Source: Desulfosarcina ovata subsp. ovata (GTDB taxonomy: Bacteria; Desulfobacterota; Desulfobacteria; Desulfobacterales; Desulfosarcinaceae). From it: a stretch of DNA of 64,000 nt. A program made the position numbers and the translations under genes. The notes beneath the pieces are model-generated. The model searched no databases. It had not been told where the DNA came from and saw only the letters and a program-made list of their open reading frames with translations. The stretch lies in assembly GCF_009689005.1 (NCBI RefSeq), contig NZ_AP021879.1:372001-436000 (forward strand), read 5' to 3'. Below, piece by piece: positions 49,511 to 59,834 of the stretch (position 1 is the stretch's first letter; every line of letters begins with the position of its first letter).

Positions 49511-50572
49511 ATGAGAAGACTAAGTTTTGTGTATTGTATTGTTATTCTGTCGATCAGTTTTATGGTGACCAATTTAACAACTGTTACAGCGGAGGCTTGG
49601 TCAAATTTCAAAGTTTATAATTTCGATAGCGGCAAGCCCGTAAAGGTTGATATCAGTCCAGCTGAAAAAGCAAGCAAGCCGTGGAAATTATATGCGTTAC
49701 TTCCCCACATGAAGGATGGCTATTGGGTTTCTGTCAATTACGGACTGGTTGAGGAAGCAAAACGTCTGGGTGTAAAATTGACGATACTTCAAGCCGGCGG
49801 CTATAGCGAAATGGCAAAGCAAGTAAATCAATATGATGATTGTTTGTCTACTAACCCAGATGCAATTCTTATCGCTCCGATCGCGGAGTCTGGACTTGCA
49901 GCTAAAATAGAAAAAACAGCAAAGACTGGATTGGTACAGATAGGTTTTGTGAATCCGATAAAAACAGCGCCAGTGACCTCTAAAATATTTGTTGATTATG
50001 CTACCAAAGGCCGACAGACAGGTGAATATTTAGCCAAGCTTTTTGTTGAAAGAAAAGGGAAAGTTGTCGCATTTCCTGGCCCTCAGGGTTCAGGATGGGC
50101 CGAGGCGTATTTAAACGGGTTCCATGAAGCGCTTGAAGGCAGTACGGTGGACATTTTGGCAGATAAATTCGGCCCGGCTGGTGTAGCGGAATCATTGATA
50201 CTTGTAGAAGATTCGTTACAAGCATACCCACAGATGAATGCAATTTGGGGTGGAGCGCCAGCGGCAGAAGCCGCTATTGGCGCGGTGGAGGAAGCGGGTA
50301 AAGAAAAAGATATGGTTATCATTTCATCTTATGAAAATCAAACAATGGTGGACTTTTTAAAAGAAGATAAAATCACAGCATTTGCTACAGAGTTTCCCGT
50401 TATGCAAGGAAGAATAGCGGTCAGTATGGCTGTTAAGGCCTTGGAGAAAAAGAAGATCCCAGCATATATGGAAATTATCCCACAGATGGCCACCATGGAT
50501 AATATAGAGGATATTGATTTGACGACTGTTTTAGCTCCACCAGGATATAGGCCGGTATTTTCGGTGGATTGA
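49511..50572 (+). CDS. TorT-like periplasmic substrate-binding protein
   Basis: 353 aa with a signal peptide (about 1-27, cleavage near TAEA). WKLYALLPHMKDGYWVSVNYGLVEEAKRLGV and ILQAGGYSEMAKQVNQYDDCL match the TorT/sugar-binding type I group. Together with the Rbs-type ATPase and permeases downstream it probably forms an importer rather than a TorS partner. Base composition is visibly A+T rich compared with the genes before it. Confidence 0.82.
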   Translation: MRRLSFVYCIVILSISFMVTNLTTVTAEAWSNFKVYNFDSGKPVKVDISPAEKASKPWKLYALLPHMKDGYWVSVNYGLVEEAKRLGVKLTILQAGGYSEMAKQVNQYDDCLSTNPDAILIAPIAESGLAAKIEKTAKTGLVQIGFVNPIKTAPVTSKIFVDYATKGRQTGEYLAKLFVERKGKVVAFPGPQGSGWAEAYLNGFHEALEGSTVDILADKFGPAGVAESLILVEDSLQAYPQMNAIWGGAPAAEAAIGAVEEAGKEKDMVIISSYENQTMVDFLKEDKITAFATEFPVMQGRIAVSMAVKALEKKKIPAYMEIIPQMATMDNIEDIDLTTVLAPPGYRPVFSVD

Positions 50573-50730
50573 ATACCGTTGAATAGTGTCACAAATGCAA
50601 GCAAATGTGATTTTCAAAGCAACCGAGCACCTGCAGCTTTCAGTTGAAATAGGCTTCGAATGTAGCCCCCTTTGGCACTGATTACCTGTGTCACTTACGA
50701 CAATAGAATCGGATTTGCCTTAGTAACTAT

Positions 50731-50755
50731 CCCGCCGCTGTCGGCTGTCGGCGGG
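50731..50755. terminator. GC hairpin between binding-protein and ATPase genes
   Basis: CCCGCCG/CGGCGGG, 7 bp perfect stem with an 11-nt loop, no clean T-run. Could partly terminate after the highly expressed binding protein. The rest of the 276-nt gap is featureless. Confidence 0.5.
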
Positions 50756-50848
50756 GTAGCTTACTTTACCATTATTATCAGACTGATTTTTGGTGTGGTT
50801 AGATATAGTTTGCAATGACGGCCAAGATAACCAAAGAATACCTGACTC

Positions 50849-52330
50849 ATGATAAAATTAAAGAACATAACGAAAACATTTCCGGGTGTAAAAGCTTTAA
50901 ACGATGTTGACTTCGAGGTGAACCCGGGTGAAATACATGTCCTTTTTGGTGAAAATGGAGCTGGAAAGTCGACATTGGTTAATATCATCGTTGGGAATCT
51001 CGCGCCTGACTCAGGTACGTATCAAATTAATGGTCAAAAAATCGATTGCTTATCTCCTAAAGTTGCCAGACTTCTAGGTATTTCTGCTGTCTCCCAAGAA
51101 TTCAGCCTGGCACCTTCATTAAGTGTGTTAGATAATCTTTTCCTTGGAAGGGAGCCCACTCGATGGGGCATCACTAATAAAAAGGTAATGGTCCAACGGG
51201 CATATAAAGTTCTAAATGATATGAAAGTCAAATTGCCTCTTTTTGCTCCTGTTAATTCTCTATCCCGTGCTCAAAAACAGCAAGCTGAAATTGCAAAGGC
51301 CCTGATGCTTGATGCAAAAGTACTAATATTGGATGAGCCAACTGCCTCTTTGACTGATATTGAAGCAAAACGTGTCATCCAATTAGTCAAAGATTTACGC
51401 CAAAAATGTGTCGCCATAATTTATATTTCTCATAGAATGCGAGAGATAAGAGCCTTGGCGAATCGTGTGACAGTACTTAGGAATGGAGAGTCTGTCGGTA
51501 CCATTGAATCCGAAGAAATAACCGAAAATACATTAGTAGAAATGATGACAGGAAAGAAGGCTGGATCATTATTTCCTGACATTTCAATTCGCCCAGGAAG
51601 TTTGCGACTTAAAATCTCCGATATGAATTTTTCGAATGGAGGGGGATACAACATTTCTTTAAGCGTTCATTCCGGTGAGATCGTAGGGATAGCTGGTCTG
51701 GTAGGATGCGGAAAAGGTCGGATCGGTAGAGCTGTATTTGGATTGGAACCGATTAAATCGGGAAAAATTGAAATTAATGGGGAAACGGTCACTCAATTTT
51801 CCCCAAGGCGTATTATGCGTCTCGGAGCCTGTTATTTCCCTTCTGATAGGGTGTCTGAAGGACTATGCATGAATAGGCCGGTTCGAGAGAATATCACAAT
51901 GGCTACTCTCGATTCGGCAGCCTTTGTTGAAAGGGGTTTTATTAGATTGAACAATGAGAGTAACTCTTCTATGGTTTGTGCCGAACACCTTAAAGTTGAT
52001 TTGTCTAAATTAGAAACATCCGTTGAAAATTTATCGGGCGGTAATAGACAAAAGGTCCTGTTAGCACGAGGTTTTATTCGAGATATCGAATTGTTTATAT
52101 TTGATGAGCCGACAGTAGGTGTCGATATCAATGCTAAATCAGAAATCTATTTACTTATGAAAAGTTTGGTTGAACACGGTGCTGGTATTTTACTTATTTC
52201 TTCTGATCTTGAAGAGATTATTAAACTAAGCAATCGTATTTACACAATGCATAATGGATCGATTGTGGCAGAGCTAATGGATAATAATAAATCAGAAGAA
52301 AATATTTTGTCTTGCTTCTTTGGAAAATAA
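50849..52330 (+). CDS. Sugar-type ABC transporter ATPase (RbsA-like, two NBDs)
   Basis: 493 aa with two fused nucleotide-binding domains. NBD1: GENGAGKST, LSRAQKQQAEIAKAL, LILDEPTASL. NBD2: its Walker A is weak (GLVGCGKGRIG) as usual for this family, LSGGNRQKVLLARGF and FIFDEPTVGVD. A+T rich. The predicted partners are the TorT-like protein and the two permeases. Confidence 0.92.
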   Translation: MIKLKNITKTFPGVKALNDVDFEVNPGEIHVLFGENGAGKSTLVNIIVGNLAPDSGTYQINGQKIDCLSPKVARLLGISAVSQEFSLAPSLSVLDNLFLGREPTRWGITNKKVMVQRAYKVLNDMKVKLPLFAPVNSLSRAQKQQAEIAKALMLDAKVLILDEPTASLTDIEAKRVIQLVKDLRQKCVAIIYISHRMREIRALANRVTVLRNGESVGTIESEEITENTLVEMMTGKKAGSLFPDISIRPGSLRLKISDMNFSNGGGYNISLSVHSGEIVGIAGLVGCGKGRIGRAVFGLEPIKSGKIEINGETVTQFSPRRIMRLGACYFPSDRVSEGLCMNRPVRENITMATLDSAAFVERGFIRLNNESNSSMVCAEHLKVDLSKLETSVENLSGGNRQKVLLARGFIRDIELFIFDEPTVGVDINAKSEIYLLMKSLVEHGAGILLISSDLEEIIKLSNRIYTMHNGSIVAELMDNNKSEENILSCFFGK

Positions 52331-52355
52331 ATAGATGCAATGAAGTAGGAACATA

Positions 52356-53378
52356 ATGAAATTAAATATTAATAATAAAGCTTTATCATGGATAATGAAA
52401 GTTCGTATAGATCTTTTCTTTCTTCCTTTTGTTATATTTCTAATTGTTTTGCTAATGGTTTTTATTGAACCAAGATTTTTTTCACGTCTCAATATTTCAA
52501 ACGTATTGCGATATTTTTCAGCGTTATCCTTCACCGCACTTTGCCAGGGATTGGTGATGATTGTTGGAGGATTCGACCTTTCCGTTGGTTCGATAATGGC
52601 TATGGCATCCGTTGTTAGTGCAACAACCATGATTTCAATTCAATCCATTGTACCTGGCATGGTAGGTTTGCATATTTTATGTGGTGTCGGAGCTGGGATT
52701 ATCGCTGGTGCTTTAGCCGGATTGTTAAACGGTACTTTAGTATCCCAACTAAAAGTATCACCTTTTATTATTACTATGGGCACGATGTCCATAATTTCTG
52801 GCAGCGTCTATTTATATACGAAAGGAGCACCAATATATGGATTGCCTAAACTACTTATTGTGGAAATTGGTCGTGGCAGGATTTTAAATTTGCCTATATT
52901 ATTCTTTGTGGCATTGCTGGCCGTATTGATACTTTGGTTCATCATGGTAAAGACACCTTTTGGTCGTCACACATATGCTGTTGGGTCGAACCCGCGCGCG
53001 GCATATGAGTCAGGAATCAAACCTACCACCATTATACTGACAATATATACACTATCAGGTGTTTTATCAGCAGTGGCCGGATTAATTATCACTGCTAGAA
53101 TTGGATCTGGACAATCAGGTATAGGAAGCAATGCTGCAATTGAGTCTATTGCAGCCGCGGTTATTGGCGGGGTTTCATTGCGAGGTGGAATAGGCAGCAT
53201 TCCTAAAGTTGCTTTGGGAGCACTCTTTTTAGCTATCATTTCAAACACGCTCAATCTGGCACATATAGACAGTAAATATCAGACAATGGTGCTAGGATTT
53301 TTCTTGATTTTTGCTATTGCCATCGAGCGTTGGATAAGTGCTTTGTTTGTACGTGCTTTGTTCGGAGGTAAAGGATGA
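52356..53378 (+). CDS. Sugar-type ABC transporter permease (RbsC-like) 1
   Basis: 340 aa with about ten hydrophobic segments, GGFDLSVGSIMAMASV and AAAVIGGVSLRGGIGSIPKVALGALFLAIISN, the RbsC-family signatures. The stop overlaps the next ATG (ATGA) with a GGAGGT box, so it is coupled to the second permease. This copy is intact. Confidence 0.92.
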   Translation: MKLNINNKALSWIMKVRIDLFFLPFVIFLIVLLMVFIEPRFFSRLNISNVLRYFSALSFTALCQGLVMIVGGFDLSVGSIMAMASVVSATTMISIQSIVPGMVGLHILCGVGAGIIAGALAGLLNGTLVSQLKVSPFIITMGTMSIISGSVYLYTKGAPIYGLPKLLIVEIGRGRILNLPILFFVALLAVLILWFIMVKTPFGRHTYAVGSNPRAAYESGIKPTTIILTIYTLSGVLSAVAGLIITARIGSGQSGIGSNAAIESIAAAVIGGVSLRGGIGSIPKVALGALFLAIISNTLNLAHIDSKYQTMVLGFFLIFAIAIERWISALFVRALFGGKG

Positions 53379-54268
53379 ATAGTGCTCTATATAAAATTAT
53401 TCATAATTCACGACGATTCGAAATTGCTATGTTTATGGGAATAGCATTATTACTAATCGGATTTGCGATGAAGGAACCCACGGTTCTGTCCACTACCAAT
53501 ATTCTCAATGTTTTGTCGCAGACAAGCTACCTGGCAATTTTCGCCTGTGCTCAGTCAATTGTTATACTTGTGCGAGGATTTGACCTGTCATTGGGAACTA
53601 CGGTCTCCGTAGTCAGTCTCTTTACGGCTCTGGTAATGGTTTCCTTAGGCGCATTTTCTATCCCAATGGGGATAGCAGCAGGCCTCCTTGCCGGTAGTAT
53701 CATAGGCTTTTTTAATGGTTATTGTGTCGCGATTCTGGAGATTAACCCATTTATCGTTACCTTGGGTACTTACAATATATTGTTAGCGGTAAGCTCAACT
53801 ATAACCGGTGGGTTCCCGGTTACAGGTCTTCCAACTATATTTCCAAAATTATTTTCCGAGATTTCTATTATAGGAATACCCATTGCCGTTATTATTGCAG
53901 TTTTAATCATAGTTACCTTAGAATATTTGCTTCTTAATACGGTCTTCGGAAGGAATCTTTATCTAATCGGATCGAATCCGCGAGCAGCACATATTGCTGG
54001 AATAAGTTATAAATTTAATTCTATTGTTGCTTATATTCTATGTTCATTTTTAATTGCAATTGGTGCAATATTATTAACCGCTCGCACAGGGTCTGGAGAA
54101 CCCAATTTGGGTAGTCAATTAACCTTGCAGACAATTGCAGCTGCAGTTATTGGCGGCATGAGTCTTCGTGGAGGAGAAGGCAGTATGATGGCACCTGTTT
54201 TGGGAGCCTGTAAGCGTTCACGGGGTATATTGGGCGCTCAATCCGGCGCACTTTTTTCGCTCCGCTAA
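53375..54268 (+). pseudogene. RbsC-like permease 2, 5' part, interrupted by IS66-family element
   Basis: The permease sequence is normal up to GGEGSMMAPVLGA (about codon 278, base 54209). The IS left end then begins at 54210, and the last ~20 codons of this open frame (to 54268) read into the element. The missing C-terminus is found on the other side of the element at 55797. The transporter would need this subunit or would have to use a homodimer of permease 1, so the importer may be inactive or altered. Confidence 0.88.
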
Positions 54269-55796
54269 CCTCTCGTAATTTCAATATTTTTATACAAAAT
54301 CAATAACTTATTGAAATAATTAAAAATATCTAGACTTTCCATTTCTAGTATGCTATCGTGCTTTTCATGAAGCCCGATAGACCCATTTCAGATGCCGATT
54401 GGCAAGCTACTGCTGAACCGGTACGCCAGTACATCGTTTCTTTGGAAGATGAGCTGCGGGCGATTAAAACTCAAAACGACAAGCTGGAGAAAAACAACGA
54501 GAAGCTTGAAAAGCAAAAACGCCAAAACTCGACCAACTCCAGCAAACCGCCCTCATCCGATCCGCCCTATAACAAACCCAAACGCGAAAAGCCCAAAGGC
54601 GAACGCAAGCCGGGCGGACAAAAAGGACACCCGGGGCATGGGCAAATGCTGCTAACGCCCAACAATACTCAAAATGTGATGCCCGAGTGCTGCGGTTGCG
54701 GTCTCCATTCATCGGATTGGGATAATCTGCGACCCTTTCATACTCACCAACATATCGAATTGCCTGAAATCGAGATGGACATCACCCATTTTGTTCTGCA
54801 CCAAGGTCAATGCCCTGGGTGCGGCAAGATTGTCAAAGCACAGGTTCCGGAGGCGTTTAGCACCGGCTACGGCCCGCGGTTTTGTGCGTTTATCGCCGAA
54901 CTGAGTGGTATCAAGGCCATGAGTCGGAGAAATGTGCAGCAACTGGTCCACTCCGTGTTTGATATCAAAATCGCCACCGGCACGATCCAAAAGGTTATCG
55001 ACCGCGCTTCCGAGGCCATTGCCTCCACCTATGAGCGTATCGGCCAGGTGGCCCGCAGCAGTGAGTGCAACTTCATCGATGAAACCAGTTGGTTTAAAAA
55101 GCACAATCTGCAATGGCTCTGGGTAATGGTCAATACGATGGTGGCCTTTTTCCGCATCGATCCGAAAAGATCCAAACAGGCCTTTCTCGAACTGATCGCC
55201 GACTGGAAAGGCATCTTGATCAGCGATGGTTATCGCCTTTATTGCAAATGGGTCCATGGCCGGCAAACCTGCCTGGCCCATTTGATCCGAAAGGCCAAGG
55301 CGTTAATCGAGAGTAGAAAACTCAACGAAAGGCGAGGCGGCAAGTTAATCTTGGCACATTTGAATACCCTGATCGAATTTTCAAAAAACAAACCGCCACC
55401 TTTAAAATGGGAGCGTTTTTATAACTCCTTGTTGCTCATCCTCAGCCTTTTTGAAGACGACACCGACGGTGCCGGTCGCCTGGCCAGGCAAATAATACGA
55501 GAAATTGACGCATTGTGGACCTTTCTCGAACATGATGGCGTCGAACCCACCAACAACCGTGCCGAACGCTCTCTGCGCTTTGGCGTGCTATGGCGCAAAT
55601 GTAGTCTGGGAACGCAAAGCGACAAAGGCAACCGCTGGGTCGAACGAATCTTGTCTGTAAAAGAAACCTGCCGACTGAGAGATAAAGCCACATTTCCGTT
55701 TATAGTCGAATGCCTGGAATGTTACTTTGCAGGCATCTCTGTTGATGTGAGTTGGATCTAAGCCTCTCTTCAGCTAATAGCCCCGTGACCGTTTAC
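54210..55796 (+). mobile_element. IS66-family insertion sequence (ISBst12-like, single transposase)
   Basis: 1587 bp. Ends: left GTAAGCGTTCACGGGG, right (inverted) GTAAACGGTCACGGGG, 14 of 16 identical and with the GTAA-x-CG start typical of IS66. Only the large transposase is encoded; the tnpA and tnpB accessory genes are absent, as in the ISBst12 group. The usual 8-bp target duplication is not seen, and about 11 nt of the permease gene seem to be missing at the junction (inference from the protein). Confidence 0.9.
54367..55761 (+). CDS. IS66-family transposase
   Basis: 464 aa from ATG 54367. Leucine-zipper-like coiled coil at the N-terminus (about 25-55, LEDELRAIKTQNDKLEKNNE), a basic Pro-rich linker, zinc-binding CCGCG-x-LHSS and CPGCGK, then the DDE core (Asp in NFIDETSW, Asp in LISDGYRLY, Glu in NNRAERSLRF). 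It appears full length and intact, so the element may still be active if the ends are functional. Confidence 0.95.
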   Translation: MKPDRPISDADWQATAEPVRQYIVSLEDELRAIKTQNDKLEKNNEKLEKQKRQNSTNSSKPPSSDPPYNKPKREKPKGERKPGGQKGHPGHGQMLLTPNNTQNVMPECCGCGLHSSDWDNLRPFHTHQHIELPEIEMDITHFVLHQGQCPGCGKIVKAQVPEAFSTGYGPRFCAFIAELSGIKAMSRRNVQQLVHSVFDIKIATGTIQKVIDRASEAIASTYERIGQVARSSECNFIDETSWFKKHNLQWLWVMVNTMVAFFRIDPKRSKQAFLELIADWKGILISDGYRLYCKWVHGRQTCLAHLIRKAKALIESRKLNERRGGKLILAHLNTLIEFSKNKPPPLKWERFYNSLLLILSLFEDDTDGAGRLARQIIREIDALWTFLEHDGVEPTNNRAERSLRFGVLWRKCSLGTQSDKGNRWVERILSVKETCRLRDKATFPFIVECLECYFAGISVDVSWI

Positions 55797-55910
55797 GTTT
55801 TATCCAATGGCATGAACCTGACCAGAATAGATGGTTATATGCAGGAAATCAGTTTGGGCGTTCTTATTATTTCGATACTTGGATTTGATCGGTTTCGCAA
55901 TAGAAGATAA
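55797..55910 (+). pseudogene. RbsC-like permease 2, 3' tail beyond the IS element
   Basis: 37 codons plus stop starting VLSNGMNLTRIDGYMQEISL and ending FDRFRNRR: the expected C-terminus of an RbsC-type permease, in the same orientation as the 5' part. It shows that the gene was once continuous with 53375-54209. Confidence 0.88.
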
Positions 55911-55942
55911 TCACATTACATAAGGTATTAGGAGATTTCTAT

Positions 55943-58015
55943 ATGAATTATCAGGTCTGTATTGATATTGGAGGCACTTTCACCGATTGTCTTGTGTCCG
56001 AAACCGAAAATAGTGGAAGGATATCTATTTTTAAATCACCAACAACTCCGGGAAATTTTGAAGAGGGATTCATAAACGTCTTAAAAGTTGCTGCAGAAAG
56101 TTACCATCAAAACTTTATAGAATTCATAAGACAGATTAAACTAATAATACATGGATCAACGGTTTCAACGAACGCTCTTGTTGAGAGAAAAGTTGCAAAA
56201 ACTGGATTGATCTTAAATTCCGGTCACCGCCATATCCTCGTTTTAAGGGAAGGACCTCGTAAAGGAGCCTTTGAATGGAAGCTGAACTATCCTGACCCAT
56301 ATATACCGGAGTGGCTGACATTCACAGTTGATGGAAGAATTGATGCCAGAGGTAATGAATTGGTTAACCTCAACGAAACCGATGTTCGAAACGCCATTTT
56401 TTCTTTGCAGCGTCGCAGGGTAGAGTCGATTGCAGTCGGCCTATTATGGTCTGTGGTCAACCCTAAACACGAGCTTCGTGTGCGTGAAATTATTAACGAA
56501 GAATGGCCTGATATTAATGTTACTTTAAGTCACGAAATCAATCCACTTCCAAGTGAATATAAACGAATAATCGCCGCAACTATTGATGCTTCAATAAACC
56601 CCATCATCAGTCGATATATCGCAAAAATTGTCAGCAAGCTAAAGGAAGTCGGATTTCAAGGTGACTTACTTATGGCGAATTGTGTTGGTGGTATGATGCC
56701 GACCCAGGAAATGATCAGACGGCCAATTTATAGTGTAATGTCCGGCCCGACGCTTGCACCAATGGCTGCATTATCCCTTACCAATGAACCTGACGTGATT
56801 GTCGGGGACATGGGCGGAACCACTTTCGATGTTTCCGCACTGCGAGATCATCAATTGATCGTTACGCCGGATTCCAAGATCCATGACGATTCTTTAGGAA
56901 TTCCTAAAGTTGATGTGAGATCCATAGGAGCTGGTGGCGGCTCATTGGCCTCGGTCGATGATGGGGGGTTGCTCATCGTGGGGCCGCAAAGTGCTGGAGC
57001 TGTTCCTGGTCCGGCCTGTTTTGATAAAGGAAATGAAGAGCCAACAGTAACTGACGCCAACGTCGTTCTCGGATTAATCGATCCTGACTACTTTCTTGGA
57101 GGCCAGTTCAAACTCAGAAAAGAACTTGCGGAACAGGCTATAAAGAAAATTGCTGATCGTTTGAATATCAGCACTATCGAAGCAGCATATGCAATATATA
57201 CAACGTCTAATCACAATATGGTCGCCGCTATTGAAGACATTACCATAAGGGAAGGTATCAACCCACGAGAGAGTTATTTTGTCTGTGGTGGTGGCGGAAC
57301 GGCATGCCATATAGCTGAAATGGTAGAAATTTTAGGTCTCACAAAGTACATGATACCCTGTTTTATGGCCGGCCTTTCAGCATTTGGAGGGTTAATCTCT
57401 GATCTCCGTTGGGAAACAAGCCGAGCTTTGCAGACAGATCATCGACATTTTAAATATGATCAGGTCAACGAACTTTTAACGCTCCTTCATAAAGAAGCGG
57501 ATGCTTTTCTTGCCGGAGCAAGAGTAGAACCTGAAATGAGACAATATGAATATGCTTTTTTCGGAAGATATGAATATCAATCCTGGGAAATAGAAGTCGC
57601 TTTTGAGACTCCGGTAGAGGGCATAAATACTGACGATCTAGAAAATCTTGTCGATCGCTTTCATGAAATGCATGAACGTATCTACAGCATTCGTAACCCT
57701 GACGATCTCGTCGAATTTACCCGCTGGCGGGTTCGCGCCATTGGAAAACGTAAAAACCAGGATGATTGGAGAAGCTTTTACCTGAAACCCCATGCCGGAG
57801 AACTGGTACCAAAATCACATAGGCCAGTATATGTTCATCAAGGGAAATCAGGGAATATGGTGTCACTTCCTGTTTACGAAATATCTTCATTCGGATCCGG
57901 AGCAAAAATTACGCATCCCAGCATTATTGAATCGGAAACCTACACCGCATATTTACGCCCAGGACACCATGCAGAGGTCGACCAGCATGGCAATCTGCTT
58001 GTCGAAGTTCACTAA
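55943..58015 (+). CDS. hyuA: Hydantoinase A / N-methylhydantoinase-type subunit HyuA
   Basis: 690 aa. ASKHA-type N-terminal DIGGTFTDCLV, ATP-binding GDMGGTTFDVS, HGSTVSTNALVERK and IREGINPRESYFVCGGGGTACH. The family includes ATP-dependent hydantoinases, 5-oxoprolinase and acetone or acetophenone carboxylase subunits, so the exact reaction is open. AGGAG box before the ATG; hyuB follows 16 nt later. A+T rich like its neighbours. Confidence 0.9.
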   Translation: MNYQVCIDIGGTFTDCLVSETENSGRISIFKSPTTPGNFEEGFINVLKVAAESYHQNFIEFIRQIKLIIHGSTVSTNALVERKVAKTGLILNSGHRHILVLREGPRKGAFEWKLNYPDPYIPEWLTFTVDGRIDARGNELVNLNETDVRNAIFSLQRRRVESIAVGLLWSVVNPKHELRVREIINEEWPDINVTLSHEINPLPSEYKRIIAATIDASINPIISRYIAKIVSKLKEVGFQGDLLMANCVGGMMPTQEMIRRPIYSVMSGPTLAPMAALSLTNEPDVIVGDMGGTTFDVSALRDHQLIVTPDSKIHDDSLGIPKVDVRSIGAGGGSLASVDDGGLLIVGPQSAGAVPGPACFDKGNEEPTVTDANVVLGLIDPDYFLGGQFKLRKELAEQAIKKIADRLNISTIEAAYAIYTTSNHNMVAAIEDITIREGINPRESYFVCGGGGTACHIAEMVEILGLTKYMIPCFMAGLSAFGGLISDLRWETSRALQTDHRHFKYDQVNELLTLLHKEADAFLAGARVEPEMRQYEYAFFGRYEYQSWEIEVAFETPVEGINTDDLENLVDRFHEMHERIYSIRNPDDLVEFTRWRVRAIGKRKNQDDWRSFYLKPHAGELVPKSHRPVYVHQGKSGNMVSLPVYEISSFGSGAKITHPSIIESETYTAYLRPGHHAEVDQHGNLLVEVH

Positions 58016-58031
58016 ATAAGAGGAGTTTCCA

Positions 58032-59834
58032 ATGGTACAGTCCACGTCTGATAAAAATATAGATAAGAAACATATTATAGACCCTTTTTTAATGTCTGTT
58101 CTCAAAAGCAGATTTGAAGCCATTGTTCGTGAAATGACGTTGGTTGTGATGAAGGCCAGCCGATCGGCAGTGATAAAGAATGCCAAGGATTTGAGTTGTG
58201 CTATTCTTACATATGATCACCGTTTGGTTACCACCGAAGATGCGTTGCCGATTCATGTTAGCTCCATGAACTTGGCGACAACGCCCATCACCAAATTTTT
58301 CAGTGATATAAAGCCAGGTGATATATTTGCTAACAATTCACCCTATACCGGAGCAACTCACCATGCCGATCTAATCCTGGCGATGCCCGTATTTTTTCAA
58401 AATGAACCCCTTTTCTGGGTGGTCGCCCTCTCCCATCACGCCGATACGGGGGCTCCTCAGCCTTCAACTTATTTGCCTTATGCAAAGACAATTTACGAAG
58501 AAGGCATGCACTATCCATGTGTCCGAATCGCTGAAAATTATAAAGAAAAAGATGATATCATACGAATGGGACGTTTGAAAAACCGTGTGCCTGATTTATG
58601 GCACGGTGATGTTCGCGCACAAATAGGTGCCTGCATAACCGGCGAGAAACGTACAATAGAACTTTGTCAGAAATATGGGGTGCAGACGCTTAGGGACTTT
58701 GTCGAAGAGTGGTTTGATTATGCATCAAGACGCATCAAGGCAGAAATACAGAAACTACCCTCAGGAGAATATTCATATGAAATCAAGCATGACCCGGTTC
58801 CTGGCGTAGCCGACGATGGGATACCGATAAAGCTCAAGCTTCTTGTGGATTCTGATAAAGGGGAAATAATCGTTGATGTTCGAGATAATATTGATTGTAT
58901 AGACGGCGGGTTAAACCTGTCGAAGAATACTTGCACGGGCTCCTGCCGTATCGGTGTGTACAATAATCTAGATGATTCCATACCCCATTGTCATGGAAGT
59001 GCAAAACACATCAAGGTTTTAATGAGAAAAGGATCGGTGGTTGGCGAACCGAAATATCCTGTAGGAACTTCTGTTGCTACAACAAATGTCAACGATCGGT
59101 TAATCACAGCAGGCAATTCCGTTTTCTCAAAGATGGGAAAACCATATGGACAAGCAGAAGGGGGGCCGCATCTTCCCGTAGGGATGGCCGTGATTTCAGG
59201 CCATGACCCTTTTAAAGACGGTCAGGTGTACGTTAACCAGATTTTTGTCGGTTACGCCGGAGGGGGTGCAAACTATGGGTATGACGGATGGCTGACCTAT
59301 TGCGGACCGGCAAATGGGGGATTGATTACCTTGGATTCGGTTGAAATTGACGAATCGATGTATCCATTCATCATTGAATCCCGGGAAGTCAGGAAAGATT
59401 CGCAAGGTTTCGGTGAATTTGAGGGGGCACCAGGCGTTGCCGGCGTTTTTTACCCTCTCAATCATGATCTGACCGTGATGTACGCTGCAGATGCAAGCAC
59501 GTTCCCTCCTCGTGGTGTTAATGGTGGTGATGACGCAATGCCGACACTTAGTAAAAAACAGCTGAAGGATGGCAGAATTGTTGACCTGCCGGCATTCAAT
59601 CAAGAGGTCTGTAAAGAAGGTGAGAAAATGCACTTTCTTTCATGTGGCGGTGGTGGGTATGGCAATCCGATAAATAGAGATCCGGCGACGGTTGCTAAAA
59701 CGGTTAATAGTGGCCAACTCTCCATTGAGACAGCGAAAAGCATATATAAAGTCGTCCTGACCGATATTGATGAAAATGGTTTGCGCCATGTCGACTATGA
59801 AGAAACAAAAAAACTGCGAATGGTTGCAGATTAA
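58032..59834 (+). CDS. hyuB: Hydantoinase B / oxoprolinase-type subunit HyuB
   Basis: 600 aa. LKSRFEAIVREMTLVVMKASRSAVIKNAKDLSCAIL, HHADLILAMPVF, WHGDVRAQIGA and C-terminal LSCGGGGYGNPINRDP are HyuB signatures. It acts with HyuA. GAGGAG box. Encoded directly before the zinc dehydrogenase, 22 nt away. Confidence 0.92.
   Translation: MVQSTSDKNIDKKHIIDPFLMSVLKSRFEAIVREMTLVVMKASRSAVIKNAKDLSCAILTYDHRLVTTEDALPIHVSSMNLATTPITKFFSDIKPGDIFANNSPYTGATHHADLILAMPVFFQNEPLFWVVALSHHADTGAPQPSTYLPYAKTIYEEGMHYPCVRIAENYKEKDDIIRMGRLKNRVPDLWHGDVRAQIGACITGEKRTIELCQKYGVQTLRDFVEEWFDYASRRIKAEIQKLPSGEYSYEIKHDPVPGVADDGIPIKLKLLVDSDKGEIIVDVRDNIDCIDGGLNLSKNTCTGSCRIGVYNNLDDSIPHCHGSAKHIKVLMRKGSVVGEPKYPVGTSVATTNVNDRLITAGNSVFSKMGKPYGQAEGGPHLPVGMAVISGHDPFKDGQVYVNQIFVGYAGGGANYGYDGWLTYCGPANGGLITLDSVEIDESMYPFIIESREVRKDSQGFGEFEGAPGVAGVFYPLNHDLTVMYAADASTFPPRGVNGGDDAMPTLSKKQLKDGRIVDLPAFNQEVCKEGEKMHFLSCGGGGYGNPINRDPATVAKTVNSGQLSIETAKSIYKVVLTDIDENGLRHVDYEETKKLRMVAD

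Follow-up and report, generated by a model that had tools for sequence, protein, structure and literature searches.

The ISBst12 group of the IS66 family consists of single-ORF elements without accessory genes, according to PMC12898284. Loss of bases beside an insertion sequence (IS) has been followed over time for an element of another kind: in three populations of the Lenski lines, 83 IS movements included 14, all of them of IS150, that came without a duplication and with deletions ranging from 14 bp up to 48,894 bp (PMC11708052). In all 14 cases an IS had been present at that position at an earlier time point, and the smallest deletion described there is one of 14 bp in yfcTU (PMC11708052). 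Among the papers listed or read in our literature search there were general accounts of missing duplications, but none described an IS66 element causing a small deletion next to itself; the precedent used here is therefore taken from another family.

We analysed a stretch of 64,000 nt from Desulfosarcina ovata subsp. ovata (NZ_AP021879.1, positions 372,001 to 436,000), hereafter the window, in which a complete IS66-family element lies inside a permease gene. Coordinates given without a genome label count from the first base of the window, and the features discussed are collected in Table 1.

Table 1. Features of the transporter operon and of the element inserted in it (window coordinates)
Feature	Position	Strand	Evidence or remark
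TorT-like periplasmic substrate-binding protein	49511..50572	+	Pfam Peripla_BP_4; NCBIfam PRK10936, TIGR02955
ABC transporter ATPase	50849..52330	+	Pfam ABC_tran, two stretches
First permease gene, uninterrupted	52356..53378	+	Pfam BPD_transp_2, profile 1-268 of 269
Second permease gene, left part (codons 1-278 and 1 base of 279)	53375..54209	+	ORF list, translation
Complete IS66-family element, 1587 bp	54210..55796	+	Identical to 8 other complete genome copies
Left terminal inverted repeat, GTAAGCGTTCACGGGG	54210..54225	+	
IS66 transposase, 462 aa from ATG 54373 (467 aa from GTG 54358)	54373..55761	+	transpos_IS66, DDE_Tnp_IS66, DUF6444
Right terminal inverted repeat, differing from the left one at 2 of 16 nt	55781..55796	-	
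Second permease gene, right part (last 37 codons and stop)	55797..55910	+	Translation, homologue alignment
Hydantoinase/oxoprolinase A-type subunit, next gene	55943..58015	+	Pfam Hydantoinase_A, Hydant_A_N
Hydantoinase B/oxoprolinase subunit	58032..59834	+	Pfam Hydantoinase_B, 401.3 bits

The interrupted gene, whose start overlaps the end of the first permease gene by 4 bases, can be read on both sides of the element. Its left part ends with APVLGA (codons 1-278, 53375-54208), base 54209 being the first base of codon 279, and its right part opens with VLSNGMNL and closes with a stop codon at 55908-55910. The first-pass annotation had described a permease gene split at these very residues with both halves legible, and the translation bears this out, as do the positions matched in the NCBIfam model PRK09699, which are 29-286 for the left part and 289-323 for the ORF bearing the tail, both with scores below the model's own cut-off. 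The ORF 53375-54268 matches Pfam BPD_transp_2 with 112.9 bits, the left part covering profile positions 1-236 of 269 and the remainder lying across the element, while the ORF with the right part has no Pfam match and, among NCBIfam models, hits a permease weakly (E 0.00022). The left frame runs on into the element for 19 residues, the first of them encoded by a codon that straddles the junction, and ends at a stop at 54266-54268. The right-hand 37 codons stay open within a 52-codon ORF (55752-55910) that starts inside the element; nothing in the data examined suggests that this ORF is used. Identity to the Aureimonas homologue is 146/278 residues for the left part and 19/37 for the right, and identity to the Sinorhizobium meliloti homologue is 135/274 and 21/37. 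The two parts are thus about equally like their closest relatives, as expected of one gene. That the right-hand codons might come from another gene had been considered from the outset, and it is contradicted by Mesorhizobium huakuii and Phaeobacter inhibens, in which their equivalent ends the permease just before the hydantoinase A gene. Taken together, the comparisons support the assignment of both halves to one permease.

The operon runs in the order TorT-like binding protein, ATPase, permease, permease (the split gene), hydantoinase A and hydantoinase B, its ABC transporter being of the sugar type (BPD_transp_2 permeases). This order is identical on the M. huakuii and P. inhibens plasmids, where the permease genes are uninterrupted; the left part is 49% identical to the M. 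huakuii homologue (134/274 aligned residues) and 44% identical to that of P. inhibens (121/275). In Aureimonas the transporter block follows the two hydantoinase genes, and in Agrobacterium rubi different genes adjoin it; the Sinorhizobium record is unannotated in this region. At E 1e-20, a search of the strain's own genome with the left part hits only the split gene itself and the first permease. The binding protein scored 278.5 bits against PRK10936 TorT (cut-off 200) and 203.6 bits against TIGR02955 TorT (cut-off 310), and both hydantoinase genes hit caprolactamase models with scores under the respective cut-offs. We suspect that the name 'TMAO reductase TorT' is ill-fitting for the operon at 49511-59834.

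The inserted element is bounded by GTAAGCGTTCACGGGG and, on the opposite strand, GTAAACGGTCACGGGG, which match at 14 of 16 positions. Its transposase scored 224.4 bits against NCBIfam transpos_IS66 (cut-off 180) and 109.6 bits against Pfam DDE_Tnp_IS66 (cut-off 23.1), and is also matched by Pfam DUF6444. These two scores above cut-off, the terminal inverted repeats and an 8-bp duplication at 11 of the 12 genome copies uphold the initial assignment to IS66. About 150 bp precede the transposase inside the element and 35 bp follow it, leaving no space on either side for the accessory genes TnpA and TnpB, so that the layout is that of ISBst12, a single-ORF assignment judged by the room available, with small overlapping ORFs inside the element lying outside the profile scans. 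A scan for promoters and terminators gave three promoter-like and three terminator-like sites, within one standard deviation of the shuffle means of 1.9 and 2.1, and two folds in the element were no better than those of shuffled sequences. As these counts are at shuffle level, we make no claim on the expression of downstream genes. The element DNA has no match in the plasmid collection; all 59 plasmid records that match the transposase do so at less than 60% identity, and the best-ranked among the best 20 of the 59, on a Solidesulfovibrio carbinolicus plasmid, is 46% identical in two pieces that together span 89% of the query. DNA similarity to the element, of whatever extent, was seen in 6 of 13 genomes of the genus (own genome included); the two closest matches from other genomes, one of 368 bases at 88% identity and one of 73 bases at 99%, are both in one genome (G006).

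The genome of the strain (7.63 Mb, single contig) holds 12 complete copies of the element, a count that leaves aside four short matches of less than 100 bases each (L014-L017) and in which loci L018-L030, overlapping loci already analysed, were left out. Nine copies are identical over the 1587 bp, and the other three have the same 26 differences from them. Two amplified variants thus coexist in this genome (L002-L012 and the window copy), and both look recently spread. The end pattern of the element was found 25 times in the genome, twice for each of the 12 complete copies and once at the right end of a truncated relic (L013). The search, whose backwards control gave 1 match, accepted exact matches alone and would overlook a decayed end. 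The relic (bases 1501-2136) is about 95% identical, retains the right end only and adjoins ORFs that by eye resemble other transposases. Two copies, one of each variant, stand in opposite orientation about 4.2 kb apart (L006 and L010; G000 252186-253772 and 257950-259536). One of the identical copies lies, with a perfect duplication, in what by eye appears to be an acyl-CoA dehydrogenase gene (L007; G000 6850192-6851778). BLAST extensions past the right end in L002 and in the relic, which at first resembled shared flanks, were taken as chance: the flank of L002 is the duplication belonging to that copy, TTTTATCC, and is shifted by one base relative to GTTTTATCC of the window, while the flank of the relic differs.

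The target duplications carry the argument on how the split arose. A perfect 8-bp duplication flanks 11 of the 12 complete copies, the window copy being the sole exception, from which it follows that the element normally duplicates its target. G008, a genome of the same genus, carries at least 17 copies of a related element of 1564 bp, a lower bound because 27 of 56 first-look candidates there were scored. Fifteen of the 17 copies, all of which were read, have an 8-bp duplication, one (L080) apparently has 7 bp and one (L082) has none. When both related elements are pooled, 8-bp duplications flank 26 of the 29 complete copies, and a further copy apparently has one of 7 bp; a copy that lacks the duplication is thus unusual without being the only one of its kind. 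L082 (G008 6033495-6035298) lies between ORFs and near other ORFs that by eye resemble transposases.

At the window copy the flanking 8-mers are GGGAGCCT and GTTTTATC, which agrees with the first-pass annotation in that no 8-bp duplication is visible. The same annotation had estimated that about 11 nt of the gene are missing. To an alignment of 24 homologues, consisting of the neighbouring permease, 5 of 725 plasmid records, one genome_contigs locus and 17 genus or class loci, the two window parts were added as separate fragments; class matches that had no locus do not figure in it, and L057 and L058, both aligned, are identical in the part shown. The homologues come from relatives, one Synergistaceae contig and alphaproteobacterial plasmids. 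In 24/24 of them, exactly four residues separate the end of the left part from the start of the right part; of the corresponding 12 nt the split gene retains one, which puts the loss at 11 nt, in line with that estimate. If a normal insertion with an 8-bp duplication is assumed, the loss after insertion comes to 19 nt.

The 26 duplications from the two genomes have a mean AT content of 74%, compared with 63% in the flanks (Wilcoxon p = 0.002). The left 8-mer of the window copy has 25% AT, and none of the 26 known duplications is as GC-rich. In a matrix built from these duplications the right 8-mer scored 2.36 and fits them, while the left one scored -3.86, below 25 of the 26, although the matrix is weak, pooling two related elements and giving true duplications scores from -5.22 to 3.82 (leave-one-out). 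As only the right flank resembles the AT-rich targets of the element, the left side is the likelier to have been eroded, and a target at the right junction with the deletion on the left is weakly favoured.

An empty site in another genome, a check proposed at the first pass, was sought in the rest of the genus (12 genomes) and in the class (389 genomes) and not found. In the 12 genomes nothing matched the left part at E 1e-20, and there was no literal empty or half-changed site. In the class, 14 genomes (own included) matched at E 1e-30, with identities outside the own genome of 44% or less. One genome_contigs scan gave one distant locus, the 725 plasmid records matching at E 1e-20 are all less than 60% identical, and a PDB sequence search with the left part returned nothing at E 0.001.

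It is probable, though by no means certain, that a normal IS66 insertion was followed by an adjacent deletion of about 19 nt and that the split permease is inactive; we regard this as the best account of the locus. The single-ORF element would have transposed into the second permease gene of the binding-protein-dependent ABC transporter operon and made its usual 8-bp duplication. A later deletion would then have removed one copy of the duplication together with 11 nt of the gene, more likely on the left side. Both ends of the element are complete, which means that the loss stops exactly at an element end, and such a deletion would be of the transposase-driven, adjacent kind. The split permease would no longer function, leaving the transporter either dead or reliant on the first permease alone. 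A small deletion that accompanied or followed the insertion had been suggested at the first pass; it stands as the most likely reading.

The same sequence would result if the insertion itself had lost the 11 nt, through an opposite stagger or an existing double-strand break, so that the duplication was never made. In its favour, both element ends are complete, no mismatched partner copy was found, and one of the 17 copies in G008 (L082) likewise lacks a duplication. Insertion into breaks is proposed for IS5 and IS481 (PMC11708052), and one fresh insertion of ISGka2, of the IS701 family, appears without direct repeats in a table of 49 prototrophs (PMC8024623). The proposal in PMC11708052, however, concerns large rearrangements, the small deletions described there being explained as two steps, and the regularity of the normal reaction, seen in 26 of the 29 pooled copies with 8 bp and in one more with apparently 7 bp, also counts against a loss in one step. 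We consider it possible but unlikely. The wider idea, that single-ORF IS66 transposases occasionally use a reversed stagger or breaks and so replace the 8-bp duplication with a short target deletion, is more doubtful still; if it were true, some duplication-less IS66 copies would be one-step events rather than products of later erosion.

Insertion followed by adjacent deletion also has to be weighed against accounts that involve a second copy or the assembly. Recombination between two same-direction insertions 19 bp apart, leaving a single copy flanked on the left by the duplication of one insertion and on the right by that of the other, would explain the exact ends and the loss of precisely the segment between the sites, and identical copies are at hand in the genome. 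It requires two independent insertions within 19 bp, however, and the left 8-mer is more GC-rich than all 26 known duplications, which makes it improbable. An assembly or polishing error at a repeat junction, with the true sequence retaining the duplication, would have had to remove 19 nt exactly at one element end in an assembly where both junctions of the other 11 copies have matching duplications; we think this very improbable. Scarcely credible is a swap of flanks by homologous recombination with a copy elsewhere, which would place the gene parts at different origins. The missing duplication is the only point in its favour, together with the relic L013, whose single end would allow for a partner since lost; the right flank of L013 differs from that of the window, and the relatives show that left part, right part and next gene belong together. 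Exchange with a present-day complete copy was rejected, since the 11 others all have matching duplications.

Nine identical element copies and open frames on both sides support a recent insertion, as the first-pass annotation had proposed, and the open frames also agree with its remark that the gene parts show no other decay. A rough hydropathy scan of the homologue from M. huakuii places its last two hydrophobic peaks at residues 289 and 314 of 329; by the homologue alignment, the break lies within the second-to-last hydrophobic segment and the last segment is in the detached right part. Given the cut in the one segment, the absence of the other and the 19 foreign residues, we infer that the split permease is inactive, and this strain may no longer make use of the transporter encoded in the hydantoinase-linked operon. 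The two halves should not be annotated as separate genes. The locus represents a clean, apparently recent disruption by an amplified IS66 element, with 11 sister copies that have kept their duplications as an internal control. The event is ordinary, with one small irregularity, the absent duplication and the lost bases, and its general biology is already known. The first-pass interpretation was right in substance; a refinement is the total loss of 19 nt that a normal insertion would imply.

Compared with described systems, the locus shares with the IS150 adjacent deletions both the missing duplication and the loss of target (PMC11708052). IS150, however, belongs to the IS3 family and its earlier state was observed in that study, whereas the case presented here involves IS66 and is known from its final state alone. 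Unlike the norm for IS66 and ISBst12, the window copy has no duplication and 11 nt of its target are missing. The element itself is close in design to ISDge4 of the ISBst12 group, as described in PMC12898284: each has one transposase ORF, of 449 aa in ISDge4 and 462 aa here, and imperfect terminal repeats beginning with GT, and an 8-bp duplication was reported for one ISDge4 insertion and is present at 11 of the 12 copies in D. ovata.
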